From Synergistota bacterium (GTDB lineage Bacteria; Synergistota; JAGHAJ01): a stretch of DNA of 9,275 nucleotides. The position numbers were made by a program, and so were the translations under genes. Each line of letters begins with the position of its first letter. The first letter of the stretch is position 1. This document shows, in pieces, positions 3,476 to 9,275 of the stretch. The stretch lies in assembly GCA_021161545.1 (NCBI GenBank), contig JAGHAJ010000201.1, forward strand, positions 1-9,275, given 5' to 3'. The notes under the pieces are model-generated. The model had not been told where the DNA came from. It saw nothing but the letters and a program-made list of their open reading frames with translations, and searched no databases.

Positions 3476-3937
3476 TTGAAGATTGTTACAACGAGGTTTG
3501 GCGAGGTAGAGATAGACGAATCCAGAATCATAAACATGCCAGACGGAATACCAGGATTTGATGAGTGTAAGAAGTTCTTTATATTTGGTAGCGAAGAACA
3601 ACCTATAAAGTGGTTTCAGAGTGTAGATAAACCGGAGGTTGCACTTCCTATAGTCAATCCGTTCCTTTTTGCCAAAGACTATGAGGTTGAACTTAGCGAC
3701 GATGATGTGGAGTTTCTGAAAGCGGAGAAACCCGAGGATATTGCAGTTTTTGTTGTGCTTGTTATTCCCAGCGGAGACCCAATGGCAATGACTGCTAATC
3801 TCAAGGCTCCTATAGTGATAAACACGAAGGAGAAAATTGGCAGACAGGTGGTATTGATGGATGATAGGTATCCTATAAGGTACAGGGTGTTTGGTAAGGA
3901 CGAAAAGCCTGCATCTTCTTCTGGAGGAGGGATGTAG
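3476..3937 (+). CDS. fliW: Flagellar assembly factor FliW (CsrA antagonist), TTG start
   Basis: FliW is a small cytoplasmic beta-barrel protein that binds either flagellin or CsrA. When it is free of flagellin it removes CsrA from flagellin mRNA. The 153-residue protein has family landmarks throughout: [14 protein letters not shown] (residues 24-37), [20 protein letters not shown] (43-62), and [20 protein letters not shown] (105-124) followed by [12 protein letters not shown]. The C-terminus is a short Ser/Gly tail. The only plausible start is TTG at 3476, preceded by a strong AGGGGGGAG at 3463-3471; no ATG or GTG lies near it. The rare start may lower FliW output relative to its neighbours. 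The coding end contains the csrA Shine-Dalgarno, and the stop is 2 nt from the csrA start, so the two antagonists are made from one message. Confidence 0.96.
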
Positions 3938-3942
3938 GTATG
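3923..3942 (+). promoter_or_regulatory. csrA ribosome binding site overlapping a CsrA-type AGGGATGT motif
   Basis: The Shine-Dalgarno GGAGGAGGGA (3923-3932) lies in the last codons of fliW, 7 nt before the csrA ATG at 3940. Positions 3928-3935 read AGGGATGT, which matches the core ARGGAUGU of the published CsrA consensus RUACARGGAUGU at all eight places. The preceding bases (GGAGG) do not match the rest of the consensus. A CsrA dimer bound here would cover the ribosome binding site, giving possible autoregulation. The match could be accidental, because Shine-Dalgarno sequences are themselves GGA-rich. Confidence 0.45.
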
Positions 3943-4212
3943 TTAGTCCTTACGCGGAAGATAAATCAGAGTATCATGATAGGTGATAAAGTGGAGATTA
4001 TGGTGCTGGATATAAAGGGAGAACAGGTGAAGCTTGGGATACAAGCTCCCCGCAGCATTGCTGTCCATAGAAAAGAGGTTTATGAGGAAATCCAGCGTGA
4101 AAACATCATGGCTGCCAGCTCTCAAGTTCTACCAGAGGATATGGGAGAACTTATCAACAAAGAAGTAAAGAAGTCCGTTAAGGATGAGGGAAAACATCCG
4201 AAAGTAAAGTAG
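3940..4212 (+). CDS. csrA: Carbon storage / translational regulator CsrA
   Basis: CsrA is a homodimeric RNA-binding protein that recognises GGA motifs and blocks ribosome binding. In flagellar operons of this type its main target is flagellin mRNA and its antagonist is FliW. The 90-residue protein starts [20 protein letters not shown] and has the [20 protein letters not shown] core at residues 31-50. The two arginines central to RNA contact, R6 and R44, are both present. It is longer than E. coli CsrA (61 residues) and most Firmicutes forms (about 75). The extra length is a charged C-terminal tail (from about 56, ending DEGKHPKVK). Longer C-termini are typical of FliW-dependent CsrA proteins, since FliW contacts this region. 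It lies 2 nt after fliW. The long leader and flagellin gene follow. Confidence 0.97.
4179..4204 (+). promoter_or_regulatory. Weak candidate sigma-28 (FliA/SigD-type) promoter for the flagellin gene
   Basis: TAAGGATG (4179-4186) and TCCGAAAG (4197-4204) are separated by 10 nt. Flagellar sigma-28 promoters have TAAA..., about 11 nt, then GCCGATAA. The -10 half keeps the central CCGA, and the -35 half keeps TAA. The site lies in the last codons of csrA and would start transcription near 4211, at the beginning of the GGA-rich leader. The spacing is one base short and several positions differ, so this is only a candidate. No better sigma-28 site was found between csrA and the flagellin gene. Confidence 0.25.
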
Positions 4213-4234
4213 GGAATTTCAAGGAAGAAACCCT
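4211..4234 (+). promoter_or_regulatory. Leader hairpin 1 with GGA in an AAGGAA loop
   Basis: AGGG (4211-4214) pairs with CCCT (4231-4234) and TTTC (4217-4220) pairs with GAAA (4227-4230). The two bases AA (4215-4216) bulge and AAGGAA (4221-4226) forms the loop. This gives 8 base pairs displaying GGA. No T-run follows, so it is not an intrinsic terminator. The two later copies of the loop sequence have only 2 base pairs closing them. Confidence 0.55.
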
Positions 4235-4277
4235 CTTAAAGACCGCAAGGAAGCCTCAAGGAAGACCTGTTTGATTT

Positions 4278-4292
4278 TGTTCACGGATGACA
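4278..4292 (+). promoter_or_regulatory. Leader hairpin 2 with a CGGA tetraloop
   Basis: TCA (4281-4283) pairs with TGA (4288-4290) around the loop CGGA. With T4280 bulged, two further pairs form (T4278-A4292, G4279-C4291). The stem is short, but it reproduces the CA-NGGA-TG geometry of high-affinity CsrA ligands, in which the GGA sits in the loop closed by CA/TG. Confidence 0.45.
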
Positions 4293-4298
4293 TCTTGG

Positions 4299-4313
4299 GC
4301 GCATGGATGCTGC
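4299..4313 (+). promoter_or_regulatory. Leader hairpin 3 with a TGGA tetraloop
   Basis: GCA (4301-4303) pairs with TGC (4308-4310) around the loop TGGA. G4299-C4313 and C4300-G4312 extend the stem across a bulged T4311. The loop GGA is 20 nt from that of hairpin 2 and about 30 nt before the Shine-Dalgarno GGA, distances that one CsrA dimer can bridge. A competing pairing of CATC (4291-4294) with GATG (4306-4309) is possible. Confidence 0.45.
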
Positions 4314-4347
4314 ATATTTATATAAAATTTCAAAGGAGTGAGGAAAG

Positions 4348-6627
4348 ATGATTATTAATCATAATATTTCTGCATTAGATACCTACAGGCACCTTACGAT
4401 AACACAATCTGAGATAGCTAATGCACTGGAGAAGCTTTCATCCGGTCTGAGGATCAACAAGGCTGCTGATGATGCAGCGGGACTTGCCATATCCGAAAAG
4501 ATGCGTGCGCAGATAAAGGGTCTTAATCAGGCTGCTCGTAATGCACAGGATGGCATTTCTTTGGTTCAGACAGCTGAGGGTGCAATGGATGAGCTGCATG
4601 CCATCTTACAGAGGATGAGGGAACTTGCCATTGAGGCGGCTAATGATACGAATACGGCGTTTGAACGTGAACAGATTCAGAAGGAGATAGACCAGCTCAA
4701 GGCAGAGGTGGACCACATTGCTTACTATGCACAGTTCAATACGAGGAAGCTCCTGAGTGGAAATTTGTCTTACAATCTTTTGAAGACCACTGGAGATGCT
4801 TCTATTGACAAACTCTCTGCAGATAGCAGAACAGAGGCAGGGCTGTATCAGGTTGGAATATATCAGGCAGCTGATGAGGCAGAACTCGTTGGAGGAACTG
4901 CATTTCTGGTTAGTAGTGCAGCATCTATGGAAGGTAATACTGCTGCAGTGCTCCACACAGGTACGATAACGATAAACGGTGTTGCAATTCACCTTGACTC
5001 TGATGAGTATCATTCGGCTTCGGATAAGCTACAGTATATAATAGACAAGATAAACGAAAAGACATCACAAACCAATGTTAAGGCGGAGAAATATAAGGAC
5101 CCTTACGATAGCAACATACAGCACCTGAGGCTTGTTCAGCTGGATACCGGCACTGATAATAAGATTGTTCTCGGTGGTGATGAGCAGACTTTAAAGGACA
5201 TAGGATTCGGTTTGAGGAAAGGGTACCAGGGGAATTCAATACTCACCTCTACATGGGATAGAGTGACATTTACGGCATCAGGTGATATATTCATAAACAA
5301 TGTGAATGTCTTTCATGTAACAGCAGGTGTGTCTTACACTTTGCAGTCCTTGGCTAAGATTATAAACGATAAGGCATACTTGACTGGAGTTAGAGCAGAA
5401 GCCATAGAGATAAGTATCGGTTCCGGAATACACAAATGGAGATTTCGTTTAGTGGAGGAGATACCCGGTATAGGAATAGATACGAGGAATACAACTGCGA
5501 GCATATGGTCGCAGCTTGGAGTTTCCGTTGCCAACCTTGATCTGGATGAGATACCTTCTCTTGGTAATACAGATACGGGTGTAAGGTGGTATGAGGGTAA
5601 TAATGAAGGTACTTCTCTATTTGCTGCCAGTATAGGCGAAAGGATAAGAATAAATGGTAACTGGATTGATATCAGGAATGCAAAGAGTCTTGTCTCCATT
5701 GCAGATATCATAAATCAGGCATATCAGATTACCAATGTTAAAGCTGAGGTTGTAGGTGCTGAAATCAGTGGACATGCAAGGCTGAGATTGTATCAGGTTA
5801 CTGCAGATACAAGAAACAAGATAATTATGTACGCAAACGATAATGGCTCTTCTGGTGGTGGACTTGATAAAATGGGATTTGGCATGCCGGATAAGACGGC
5901 GATAATAGATAGAAATGGAGGAGGTGCCCGATATACTACTGGTGTTAATGTCAAGATAAGGGTTTACTCTGCAGATGAGACAGGCCATCACATAAGTATA
6001 GCTGATGATGATGCGCTTATCATAGAGGGTAAGGGTAACAGGGTTACGCTGGATAAAAAGCAGGTTGGTCAGCACATATACACACCACTGAACTACGATT
6101 ATACCAAGAGAGGTATGGGACTTGCAATGGACATATATGGGGAGAATACCCCATGGTATGCTCCGAGAAACTTCACAGTAGGGACTGTAAACCTATGGGG
6201 TAGTGGTGCTGAGATAAAGGTGATGTCAGACAATACCCTCCTATTCCACATAGGTGCGAATGCAGATGAGACATTGAGAATCGATATAGAACCTGTTAGT
6301 GCAGATGCACTTGGCATCTCTAATGTAGATGTTACAACCCATGGAAACGCAGAGCTTGCTATAGATGCCGTCTCTGAAGCTATAAACAAGGTTTCAGAGC
6401 AACGAGCAAAGCTTGGTGCTTATCAGAACAGGCTTGAGCATACTATAAAGAGTTTGAACGTCTCTGCTGAGAACCTGCAGGCAGCAGAATCCCGTATTAG
6501 GGATGTTGATATGGCACAGGAGATGATGGTTTACACCAAGTTGCAGATACTTAATCAGGCAGGCACTGCGATGCTTGCACAGGCAAATACTCTACCTCAG
6601 TCCGTGCTACAGCTCCTCAGGGGATAA
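4348..6627 (+). CDS. fliC: Flagellin, unusually long (759 aa), with three flagellin_IN-like repeats
   Basis: This is the main filament protein, exported and polymerised beyond FlgK/FlgL. The N-terminal D0/D1 is classical: MIINHNISALDTYRHLTITQ (1-20), ALEKLSSGLRINKAADDAAG (26-45), then ISEKMRAQIKGLNQAARNAQ (48-67). The C-terminal D1/D0 is equally clear: FHIGANADETLRIDI at 633-647, RIRDVDMAQEMM at 716-727, and an end QANTLPQSVLQLLRG. Common flagellins run from about 280 to 500 residues. Here residues about 150-630 form a large variable insert with three tandem diverged modules (about 204-290, 311-395, 428-515) and a further beta-rich part (about 530-630). No cysteine is present. The insert is rich in Ser/Thr, relevant to the downstream glycosyltransferase. 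The start follows AAAGGAG at 4332-4338, and translation is probably under CsrA/FliW control through the leader. The gene ends at a strong terminator. Confidence 0.97.
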   Translation: MIINHNISALDTYRHLTITQSEIANALEKLSSGLRINKAADDAAGLAISEKMRAQIKGLNQAARNAQDGISLVQTAEGAMDELHAILQRMRELAIEAANDTNTAFEREQIQKEIDQLKAEVDHIAYYAQFNTRKLLSGNLSYNLLKTTGDASIDKLSADSRTEAGLYQVGIYQAADEAELVGGTAFLVSSAASMEGNTAAVLHTGTITINGVAIHLDSDEYHSASDKLQYIIDKINEKTSQTNVKAEKYKDPYDSNIQHLRLVQLDTGTDNKIVLGGDEQTLKDIGFGLRKGYQGNSILTSTWDRVTFTASGDIFINNVNVFHVTAGVSYTLQSLAKIINDKAYLTGVRAEAIEISIGSGIHKWRFRLVEEIPGIGIDTRNTTASIWSQLGVSVANLDLDEIPSLGNTDTGVRWYEGNNEGTSLFAASIGERIRINGNWIDIRNAKSLVSIADIINQAYQITNVKAEVVGAEISGHARLRLYQVTADTRNKIIMYANDNGSSGGGLDKMGFGMPDKTAIIDRNGGGARYTTGVNVKIRVYSADETGHHISIADDDALIIEGKGNRVTLDKKQVGQHIYTPLNYDYTKRGMGLAMDIYGENTPWYAPRNFTVGTVNLWGSGAEIKVMSDNTLLFHIGANADETLRIDIEPVSADALGISNVDVTTHGNAELAIDAVSEAINKVSEQRAKLGAYQNRLEHTIKSLNVSAENLQAAESRIRDVDMAQEMMVYTKLQILNQAGTAMLAQANTLPQSVLQLLRG
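4957..5217 (+). repeat. Flagellin internal repeat 1 (flagellin_IN-like module)
   Basis: Residues about 204-290: TGTITINGVAIHL strand pair, LQYIIDKINEKTSQTNVKAE helix and strand, HLRLVQLDTGTDNKIVL strands, end KDIGFG. It shares TNVKAE, LRL.Q, NKI and GFG with repeat 3 at equivalent positions. Confidence 0.7.
5278..5532 (+). repeat. Flagellin internal repeat 2 (most diverged copy)
   Basis: Residues about 311-395: SGDIFINNVNVFHV, then SYTLQSLAKIINDKAYLTGV, RAEAIEI, KWRFRLVEEIPG and SQLGVS. Layout matches repeats 1 and 3 (INN for ING, TGVRAE for TNVKAE, FRLVE for LRLVQ, LGVS for GFG), with more substitutions. Confidence 0.6.
5629..5892 (+). repeat. Flagellin internal repeat 3
   Basis: Residues about 428-515: SIGERIRINGNWIDI, SLVSIADIINQAYQITNVKA, ARLRLYQVTADTRNKIIMYA, then LDKMGFG. 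TNVKAE recurs with closely matching codons in repeats 1 (5071-5088) and 3 (5731-5748), separated by 660 nt. Confidence 0.7.
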
Positions 6628-6740: not shown

Positions 6741-8630
6741 CATAACTTTCTTGACTCTAATCTGCAAATTATAAAGCATAAAGATAGAGAGCTCTTCTCC
6801 AGATTACGCAAGGTAAAGGCAAAGCAACCTCCGTTTGTGGAGTTTTTTCCGTCTAAGAGTGGTCCCATAATAGCGCGCCTCCAGACGGATGAGGGCAAGG
6901 AATATCTTCTTCACAGCTATTATGATCCACTTGCTGAAGGAGAAGGGGTTGTTAAGAGGATTAACTGGCGTGGTGTTACGCATGTGCTGATACTCGGCTT
7001 TGGATGTGGTTATCATGTAAGGGCAATTCTCAATAGGGTTGGAGAAGATGTTGAAGTGTATGTGATAGAGCCAGATGTTACACTCTTTAAGGCAGTCATA
7101 GAAAATATGGATATGAAGGACATTCTTTCGCATAAGAACTTGAAGTTGTTTGTGGGATTACAACCTATGGGTGTAGTTGGTATGTTCTACAAGGTTTTCA
7201 AAGTGCAGGACCTGAAGTCCATTGAAGTAGTGAAGCACCCTGTTTATGCGAGGCTTGTTTCGAGGTATTTCAATGAGGTAGAGAGGCGGCTTAAAGAGGC
7301 GATAAGGCTCCTACTTACAAATCTCATAACATCTATGGTATCTACAATAAGAGACCAGAGGAATATGCTTTACAATATAGACTGGATAGTGAAGAGTCCG
7401 GGTGTTGGTGAACTCTTTGGCAGGTTTAGAGGTAGGCCTGCTGTTGTTGTCTCTGCTGGACCTTCTTTGGACAAGAATATATACTATTTAAGAGGTATGG
7501 AGGATAGAGTTTTGATAGTTTCCACTGATACTGGCATGAATGCTCTTCTGTCGCACGGTATAAGGCCTCATATTGTTGCTGTGGGAGATCCATTTGAATC
7601 AGACTACAACTGCTTTATGTTTACCCCCCCTGAGGAAGAAGAGGGAATCTGGCTTGTTGCAGACCCAAGGGTTACACCTCGCATACTGAATCACTGGGGT
7701 GGAAGTGTAATGATTGGGGAACTTGGCTCCAGGTTTATGAACTGGTTGAAGCAGTTTGTCGGTGATAAGGGAACCCTTGTTGCATGGGGATCCGTTGCGA
7801 CCCAGGCTATGAGTATAGCTGTCAATTTAGGAGCAAATCCCCTAATATTTATAGGGCAGGATTTATCTTTTGTTGATGGCAGAAAGTATGCTTCTTATAC
7901 TTATGGGGATTATCTTGGCAACAATTATGTTCCCCTGAATGGAAAGGGTTTTACGCTTGAAAAAGACTTGTTTGATAGAGATGTTCCAACTGTCCACAAT
8001 ATGAAGACTTACAGAGATTGGTTTAACCAGCAGATATCTCAGTTACCTATTACAGTTATCAATGCTACAGAGGGAGGGATAATGAGGGAAGGTGTTATCT
8101 GCATGAGTCTTAGGGAAGCGCTGGAAATCCATGCTAAGGAGCCGTTTTATCCACGTGAAACCATAAACAAGATGATAAGGTATCCGAAGGCCGATAGGGA
8201 CGCAAAGAGCGTGAGAGATGGACTTAGGCAGTTGCTGACTGTGGTAGATGAAATATACAATCTTGCGGTATCAGTGCAAAAGGAGATAGATGAGGTATTT
8301 GGAGGTGTTGAGGATCCAAACAAGTTAGAAGGGTTTAACTGGAATGAGATCCTCTTTAAACTTGAAAGTAGTGAAAAGGAGCTACGGGCCTTGATGAAGA
8401 AAGGAAGGTTCGTAGGTGATGGCTTTTTTGTGATACTACTAAACTTTGGTAGATTGATGGACAATGCACGTAAAAACCCCGATGAAGTGAAAAGGAATGC
8501 GGAGCAAGTGGCATCTTATATGGAACTCTTCAAAGGTGTGGAACAGATTGCCTTGAAGTATAGGAAGATGCTTTGTAACGCAATCGATAAGCTAAATGTG
8601 TTGATTCAAGGAGTGAAGGTACATGCCTAA
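6732..8630 (+). CDS. Maf family (DUF115 / MptE-like) flagellin glycosyltransferase
   Basis: Motility-associated factor (Maf) proteins are cytoplasmic enzymes that attach nonulosonic acids such as pseudaminic or legionaminic acid to Ser/Thr of flagellin before export. The 632-residue protein (GTG start) has the expected order. Residues about 60-190 are the Maf N-terminal domain with a Rossmann-like VLILGFGCGYHVRAIL (85-100) and YVIEPD (110-115). The DUF115 domain starts near 234 (GRPAVVVSAGPSLDKN), with STDTG (264-268), VGDPF (284-288), NLGANPLIFIGQDLSF (365-380) and NATEGG (444-449). A helical C-terminal part follows. The frame stays open upstream to 6681, but that region is the terminator and promoter, so the GTG at 6732 is preferred. 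The gene directly follows flagellin yet has its own promoter. The sugar donor cannot be read from the sequence, and no sugar synthesis genes are in view. Confidence 0.88.
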   Translation: MREHNFLDSNLQIIKHKDRELFSRLRKVKAKQPPFVEFFPSKSGPIIARLQTDEGKEYLLHSYYDPLAEGEGVVKRINWRGVTHVLILGFGCGYHVRAILNRVGEDVEVYVIEPDVTLFKAVIENMDMKDILSHKNLKLFVGLQPMGVVGMFYKVFKVQDLKSIEVVKHPVYARLVSRYFNEVERRLKEAIRLLLTNLITSMVSTIRDQRNMLYNIDWIVKSPGVGELFGRFRGRPAVVVSAGPSLDKNIYYLRGMEDRVLIVSTDTGMNALLSHGIRPHIVAVGDPFESDYNCFMFTPPEEEEGIWLVADPRVTPRILNHWGGSVMIGELGSRFMNWLKQFVGDKGTLVAWGSVATQAMSIAVNLGANPLIFIGQDLSFVDGRKYASYTYGDYLGNNYVPLNGKGFTLEKDLFDRDVPTVHNMKTYRDWFNQQISQLPITVINATEGGIMREGVICMSLREALEIHAKEPFYPRETINKMIRYPKADRDAKSVRDGLRQLLTVVDEIYNLAVSVQKEIDEVFGGVEDPNKLEGFNWNEILFKLESSEKELRALMKKGRFVGDGFFVILLNFGRLMDNARKNPDEVKRNAEQVASYMELFKGVEQIALKYRKMLCNAIDKLNVLIQGVKVHA

Positions 8631-9275
8631 TTTCCCTGCATCTGTTGGGGCAGTTACTGTGCATGGAAATATCGCTTATGTCGTGGACCCGATAGGAAGC
8701 AAGATATGGATACTTGATAGGGATTTGCAGTTTGTAGATAGTTTTGGTAAAAGGGGTAGAAAGAAAGGTGAGCTGTTTTATCCCAACTCGGTGGCAGTAA
8801 AGGATAGTTTTATACATGTCGTAGACTCGTTTAATAATAGGATTCAGGTCTTTGATAGTGACTTTCGGCTTACGGAAATACATGGTAAAAGTGGTGTAAG
8901 ATTAGGTGAACATACAATGCCAGTAGATATTATGTTTATTGACGATAACGCCTTTGTGCTTGAGAGGGATAATAATCGTATTCAGGTATTCTCTTCTGAG
9001 TGGAAACCTTTGTGGATGTTTGGAGGAGTCTACAAACCTCCAAGAGATGGTATTGCTACCTACCTTGGTTCAATAGATGAGTATATGGATGGATATGGTT
9101 TTCTTTATCCTGTTAGGTTTATAAGGGGAAGAAAAGGAGATATGTTTGTTGTTAATTCAGGAAATGATATGATTTTGAGGTTGGATAGCAGGTGGTGTAA
9201 GGTTGATGATACTGTCATATATCCTTACCCTTATTCTGTTGCTTTTATCTCTTCTGGTTATATAATAGTAGCTCC
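8623..9275 (+). CDS. NHL-repeat beta-propeller protein (partial, 3' end outside window)
   Basis: The frame is open from ATG at 8623 to the window edge, giving 217 codons without a stop. NHL-type blades recur: AYVVDPIGSKIWILDRDLQF (19-38), YPNSVAVKDSFIHVVDSFNN (53-72) continuing RIQVFD, FVLERDNNRIQVFSSEW (111-127), and YPVRFIRGRKGDMFVVNSGN (162-181). The Asn-Asn-Arg-Ile-Gln-Val-Phe core appears twice, and about four blades are visible with a 20-residue insert before the fourth. There is no signal peptide, so the product is predicted to be cytoplasmic. The ATG overlaps the maf stop by 8 nt and has AAGGAGTG at 8608-8615, which implies coupled translation. NHL propellers bind proteins, RNA or carbohydrates, and no specific function can be given here. 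A link with flagellin modification is inferred from position only. Confidence 0.8.
   Translation, partial: MPNFPASVGAVTVHGNIAYVVDPIGSKIWILDRDLQFVDSFGKRGRKKGELFYPNSVAVKDSFIHVVDSFNNRIQVFDSDFRLTEIHGKSGVRLGEHTMPVDIMFIDDNAFVLERDNNRIQVFSSEWKPLWMFGGVYKPPRDGIATYLGSIDEYMDGYGFLYPVRFIRGRKGDMFVVNSGNDMILRLDSRWCKVDDTVIYPYPYSVAFISSGYIIVA

Follow-up and report, generated by a model that had tools for sequence, protein, structure and literature searches.

Does the short gap between csrA and a flagellin gene in this Synergistota genome act as a CsrA-controlled leader, and how far does it depart from the known flagellin switch? In B. subtilis, CsrA blocks the Shine-Dalgarno (SD) sequence of hag and FliW removes CsrA (PMC7652899). 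The window, the whole stretch of 9,275 nt analysed here, is one entire contig of a 1.58-Mb assembly (1,575,279 bases, 82% complete) and carries flgK, flgL, fliW, csrA, flagellin and an MptE-like motility-associated gene. The fliW gene (3476–3937, plus strand, TTG start), whose product is a CsrA antagonist and flagellin binder, matched Pfam FliW (E 1.1e-42) and the FliW structure 5dmb_A (E 5.6e-27). The csrA gene (3940–4212, plus strand, 90 aa; Pfam CsrA E 1.2e-25) starts 2 nt past the fliW stop. Its top PDB match was the CsrA chain of 5dmb (E 3.1e-17), an entry that contains FliW as well as CsrA. The RNA-binding residues and the FliW-contact residue N55 were looked for in the alignment, in which L4, R44 and N55 are retained and the N55 column is aligned. 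The flagellin gene (4348–6627, plus strand, 759 aa) matched Flagellin_N (E 1.8e-46) and Flagellin_C (E 2.5e-31). Both fliW and csrA, with the expected residues present, thus lie directly upstream of the flagellin leader. The original prediction that the circuit is complete within one locus agrees with this gene order, but the sigma factor and the genes for flagellin export are located elsewhere.

Because the csrA stop codon occupies 4210–4212, the leader proper is the 135 nt from 4213 to 4347. Within this gap we found five CANGGANG motifs: three copies of CAAGGAAG starting at 4220, 4246 and 4257, CACGGATG at 4282 and CATGGATG at 4302. The SD sequence AAAGGAGTGAGG follows at 4333–4344, before the flagellin ATG at 4348, and GGA occurs eight times in the leader in total, more than the five motifs and the SD account for. 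The three CAAGGAAG copies have differing flanks, so they did not arise as a plain tandem repeat. CANGGAWG was counted 7 times on the two strands of the window, where 2.7 were expected, and one 90-nt stretch of the leader holds five of these. Three CANGGANG motifs spaced 3–33 nt apart were found nowhere else on either strand of the 1,575,279-base genome, and a control with the reversed pattern gave 0 clusters genome-wide. The five GGA motifs and the GGA-rich SD of the original prediction were confirmed, and the observation proved stronger than first claimed. The GGA cluster in this leader is real.

The motif was picked post hoc, but the hexaloop test uses an independent definition from RsmE and RsmZ structures. 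A high-affinity site in the RsmE-RsmZ structures is an ANGGAX hexaloop that sits immediately on a stem whose closing pair is C-G, with U-A or G-C next (PMC4005645). The leader contains six such hexaloops, the five motifs plus the SD site, and every one has two or more Watson-Crick closing pairs. By comparison, no more than three were seen in any of 20,000 dinucleotide shuffles or in any of the phylum's 73 other leaders of flagellin genes. Together with the uniqueness of the cluster in the genome, this bears out the earlier statement that the motifs are far from random. All five CANGGANG motifs have complementary outer flanks, U-A at sites 1, 3 and 4 and G-C at sites 2 and 5, and the array has the C-G plus U-A or G-C closure of RsmZ-type sites. 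All six predicted sites are on the plus strand. Site 1 (4211–4234) is the hairpin AGGG..UUUC[AAGGAA]GAAACCCU, at -5.2 kcal/mol with a GGA unpaired probability of about 0.95; its stability showed no excess over shuffles. Site 2, GC[AAGGAA]GC (4245–4254), has a weak stem and pairs otherwise in the minimum-energy fold, and site 3, UC[AAGGAA]GA (4256–4265), has a weak stem and no stable local fold. Site 4, UC[ACGGAU]GA (4281–4290), was found by the hexaloop detector with local folding, its stem being weak alone, while site 5, GC[AUGGAU]GC (4301–4310), folds at -3.4 kcal/mol. Site 6, UUUCA[AAGGAG]UGAGG (4328–4343), lies over the SD with a weak fold of -0.5 kcal/mol. As in hag-type leaders, a GGA site (site 6) overlaps the flagellin SD and at least one ANGGA hairpin lies upstream, here five predicted hexaloops.

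Folding of the whole leader, which had been proposed as a check, gave a minimum-energy structure less stable than shuffles (z +1.42). In this structure sites 2, 3, 5 and 6 have base-paired GGAs, and forcing all six sites open cost about 9 kcal/mol. The stems of sites 2, 3, 4 and 6 were weak when folded alone. Since its stability was not above that of shuffles, we dropped the whole-leader fold as support for a switch. A long-range stem of CCUCA (4254–4258) with UGAGG (4339–4343) appears in the minimum-energy fold, but its complementarity did not exceed that of shuffles, and we therefore do not claim SD sequestering for the window. We also rejected a short upstream open reading frame, seen by eye, that would run from the ATG in CATGGATG to the SD and allow iraD-like coupling; leaders L038 and L039 are without that ATG.

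To place this leader, flagellin leaders were extracted from genomes of the same phylum (n=73 besides the window leader); some genomes contributed more than one gene and some of the species are related, so that the counts below are not independent events. GGA was the most enriched triplet in the loops of hairpins of at least 6 bp (40 of 175, 23%; 3.7% over all triplets), and many different pair types make up the stems of the GGA-loop hairpins. A GGA hairpin of at least 5 bp was present in 44 of the 73 leaders, whereas shuffles gave 6.5 and random genomic pieces 5.4. At the SD, CANGGA was found in 64 of 73 flagellin leaders but at only 1 of 52 fliW or csrA starts. The usual layout, phylum-wide and in Bacillota, is two hexaloops, one in an upstream hairpin and one at the SD. 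In the csrA loci of Bacillota, nearly all leaders of the main flagellin gene have two hexaloops, one near -35 and one near -15; a single leader has three. The detector thus recovers the hag-type two-site layout in Bacillota, and the window leader with six is the outlier.

The nearest family compared (f3, L037–L040) has the same flgL-fliW-csrA-flagellin order as the window. Its csrA-linked leader carries a sigma28 promoter followed by three GGA sites: TCCTCACGGATGAGGA, GCGCANGGATGCGG and a third that covers the SD. In all four genomes this leader holds a cluster of three CANGGANG motifs, exactly one such cluster per genome and on the matching strand. The conservation of GGA motifs by which the original prediction was to be judged was seen in part. 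The two 3' motifs of the window (4282 and 4302) have counterparts in these relatives, and the site at 4302 shares 12 identical nucleotides (GCGCATGGATGC) with L037, but the three CAAGGAAG sites have no counterpart in f3, where the sigma28 promoter occupies that stretch. The CCUCA arm of site 3 is similar to site 1 of f3 (CCTCACGGATGAGG). Other flagellins of this family (L070, L071 and L073) have three hexaloops or more. Together with the three-site leaders, these indicate that expansion beyond two sites is a feature of the branch and has gone furthest in the window.

On this evidence we consider it likely that 4213–4347 controls a flagellin gene of the hag type, repressed by CsrA and derepressed by FliW, with a leader grown to six predicted sites. 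We infer that CsrA dimers would bind the ANGGAX hexaloops, and that CsrA on the SD hexaloop would block ribosome entry while upstream sites hold or load a CsrA dimer by bridging. Export of flagellin would free FliW, which would strip CsrA from the leader and allow flagellin to be translated. The leader may have grown from two sites to six in the window lineage, and tighter, steeper repression might be expected from the expanded array. CsrA can bridge sites 10–63 nt apart (PMC7652899). The GGA-to-GGA distances across the six sites are 26, 11, 25, 20 and 30 nt, all inside this range, so that up to three CsrA dimers could bind per mRNA. In the B. subtilis circuit there is about one CsrA dimer per hag transcript (PMC6529632). 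Room for three dimers would alter this 1:1 stoichiometry and makes site number a natural variable for testing how flagellin homeostasis is tuned.

Could the GGA-richness be chance or compositional, with no CsrA function? The leader is purine-rich, its folds are weak and flagellin genes often have several SD-like strings nearby, but the shuffle, genome-wide and cross-phylum tests all contradict this explanation, which we regard as highly improbable. A more serious alternative is that transcription starts inside the gap, leaving the flagellin mRNA with two to three sites (4282, 4302 and the SD) and the CAAGGAAG copies untranscribed or present only in csrA read-through RNA. L037–L040 have a sigma28 promoter in the corresponding stretch with RNA starting just before site 1 of f3, and the window retains CTCTTAAAG at the -35 position. 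The matching -10 would, however, be TCAAGGAA, poor in comparison with GCCGATAA, while the second flagellin of the genome keeps TAAA-N15-GCCGAAT. Moreover, selection for hexaloops upstream of a transcription start is unexpected, yet sites 1–3 all have Watson-Crick flanks. A search of the csrA-flagellin gap for sigma28 promoters gave only sub-threshold candidates, none scoring above chance, and the transcript is thus possibly limited to the 3' sites. One weak candidate, TTAAGG-N15-TCCGAAAG (4178–4204, plus strand), would start RNA near 4211; it is similar to TTAAGT-N15-TCCGATAT of L070 and L073, but its score of 8.3 of 11.3 was not above chance (null median 7.8, 90% 8.7). No terminator was found between csrA and flagellin, so that read-through, or the weak 4178–4204 promoter, would include sites 1–3 in the RNA. 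We consider a start inside the gap the less likely reading. A multi-site CsrA switch expanded beyond hag, as first proposed, is supported in part by the six predicted sites next to fliW and csrA, but qualified by the CAAGGAAG copies without f3 counterparts and by the want of an above-chance promoter.

The leader might instead serve mainly as a CsrA sponge. The flagellin mRNA would then have two functions and, like RsmZ/CsrB or the C. jejuni flaA leader, draw CsrA away from other flagellar messages. With 135 nt and eight GGA it resembles RsmZ, which has eight GGA in 127 nt and four dimers (PMC12047976). Titration of CsrA is known for the flaA leader of C. jejuni (PMC4894983), and a search of the genome for an RsmZ-family RNA found none. 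Set against this, the overlap of one site with the SD is in keeping with direct repression, and the genome is fragmentary. We hold a mainly titrating role to be possible but doubtful. Within the preferred reading of a FliW-derepressed switch, the abundant leader may also act as a CsrA sink, with titration possible as in C. jejuni flaA (PMC4894983). Only tentatively do we suggest a bolder version, in which the leader would be an RsmZ-like array in an mRNA, three dimers loading cooperatively to give steep all-or-none silencing, and with the sponge taking the place of Csr sRNAs in a bacterium that has FliW.

The hag leader of B. subtilis is likewise a flagellin leader with csrA and fliW as partners, in which one site covers the SD and another lies upstream of it (PMC7652899, PMC8523840), but it has two sites as against six predicted here; in the window, csrA is directly upstream of flagellin and the predicted sites fill the entire gap. 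The C. jejuni flaA 5'UTR shares ANGGA hexaloop hairpins, SD overlap and FliW antagonism, but it is 45 nt long with two hexaloop sites and one dimer, and fliW is not beside csrA (PMC4894983). Six CsrA sites in one mRNA leader, as predicted for the window, are known from E. coli pgaA (PMC7652899), which is not a flagellin gene and is controlled by Rho-dependent termination and csrB/C rather than FliW. RsmZ and PrrB sRNAs have ANGGAX hexaloops with the same closure and are similar in length and GGA number (PMC4005645, PMC12047976), whereas the window array would be part of an mRNA leader and has no terminator and no Rfam match. An Rfam search of the window at gathering score gave no match, hence no Csr/Rsm RNA family, nor did a search of the genome with RF00166. 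We found no description of CsrA-type flagellin leader control in Synergistota in the literature searched. Two-hexaloop flagellin leaders are widespread in this phylum, and in one branch they have been enlarged to three, four and six sites. Judged from sequence, this is probably a CsrA leader ordinary in kind but enlarged, new in its six-site form, the hag-type switch being already known.

Several minor observations were made. The second flagellin of the genome (L067; contig 220, 9.4 kb) is short (249 aa) and has a clear sigma28 promoter, with a single hexaloop and a single CANGGANG site. The best FliA-like sigma factor (L154–L155, contig 17) is split and scored 46 bits against a family cut-off of 189.6; a true FliA may be absent because the assembly is incomplete. 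An open frame at 8624–9275 runs off the contig end and by eye resembles a repeat beta-propeller protein. In flagellin leaders of the phylum an SD-like GGAGGTG(G/A)TG lies near the 5' end, about 8–40 nt past the sigma28 -10 box (L070, L075, L077 and L129 are examples); it was present in 19 of 38 leaders with good promoters, against 7.6 expected from shuffles, and might be a tiny leader ORF or a ribosome site that stabilises the 5' end. The sigma28 promoter spacer of L037–L040 (-107 to -90) contains an 11–13-nt complement of the flagellin SD region (-14 to -1), for example GAGTCCTCACCTT with GGGGTGAGGACTC in L039. The complementarity reached z 5.5–7.7 in three of the four, and between genomes an A-T/G-C change is matched on the two sides. 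In this family the SD could be hidden in RNA that reads through from csrA, but would not be in RNA started at the sigma28 promoter. In the same four leaders, GGA hairpin 1 has a 5' arm (GUCCUCAC) that can pair either with its own partner or with the SD (GUGAGGAC), and the minimum-energy fold favours pairing with the SD.
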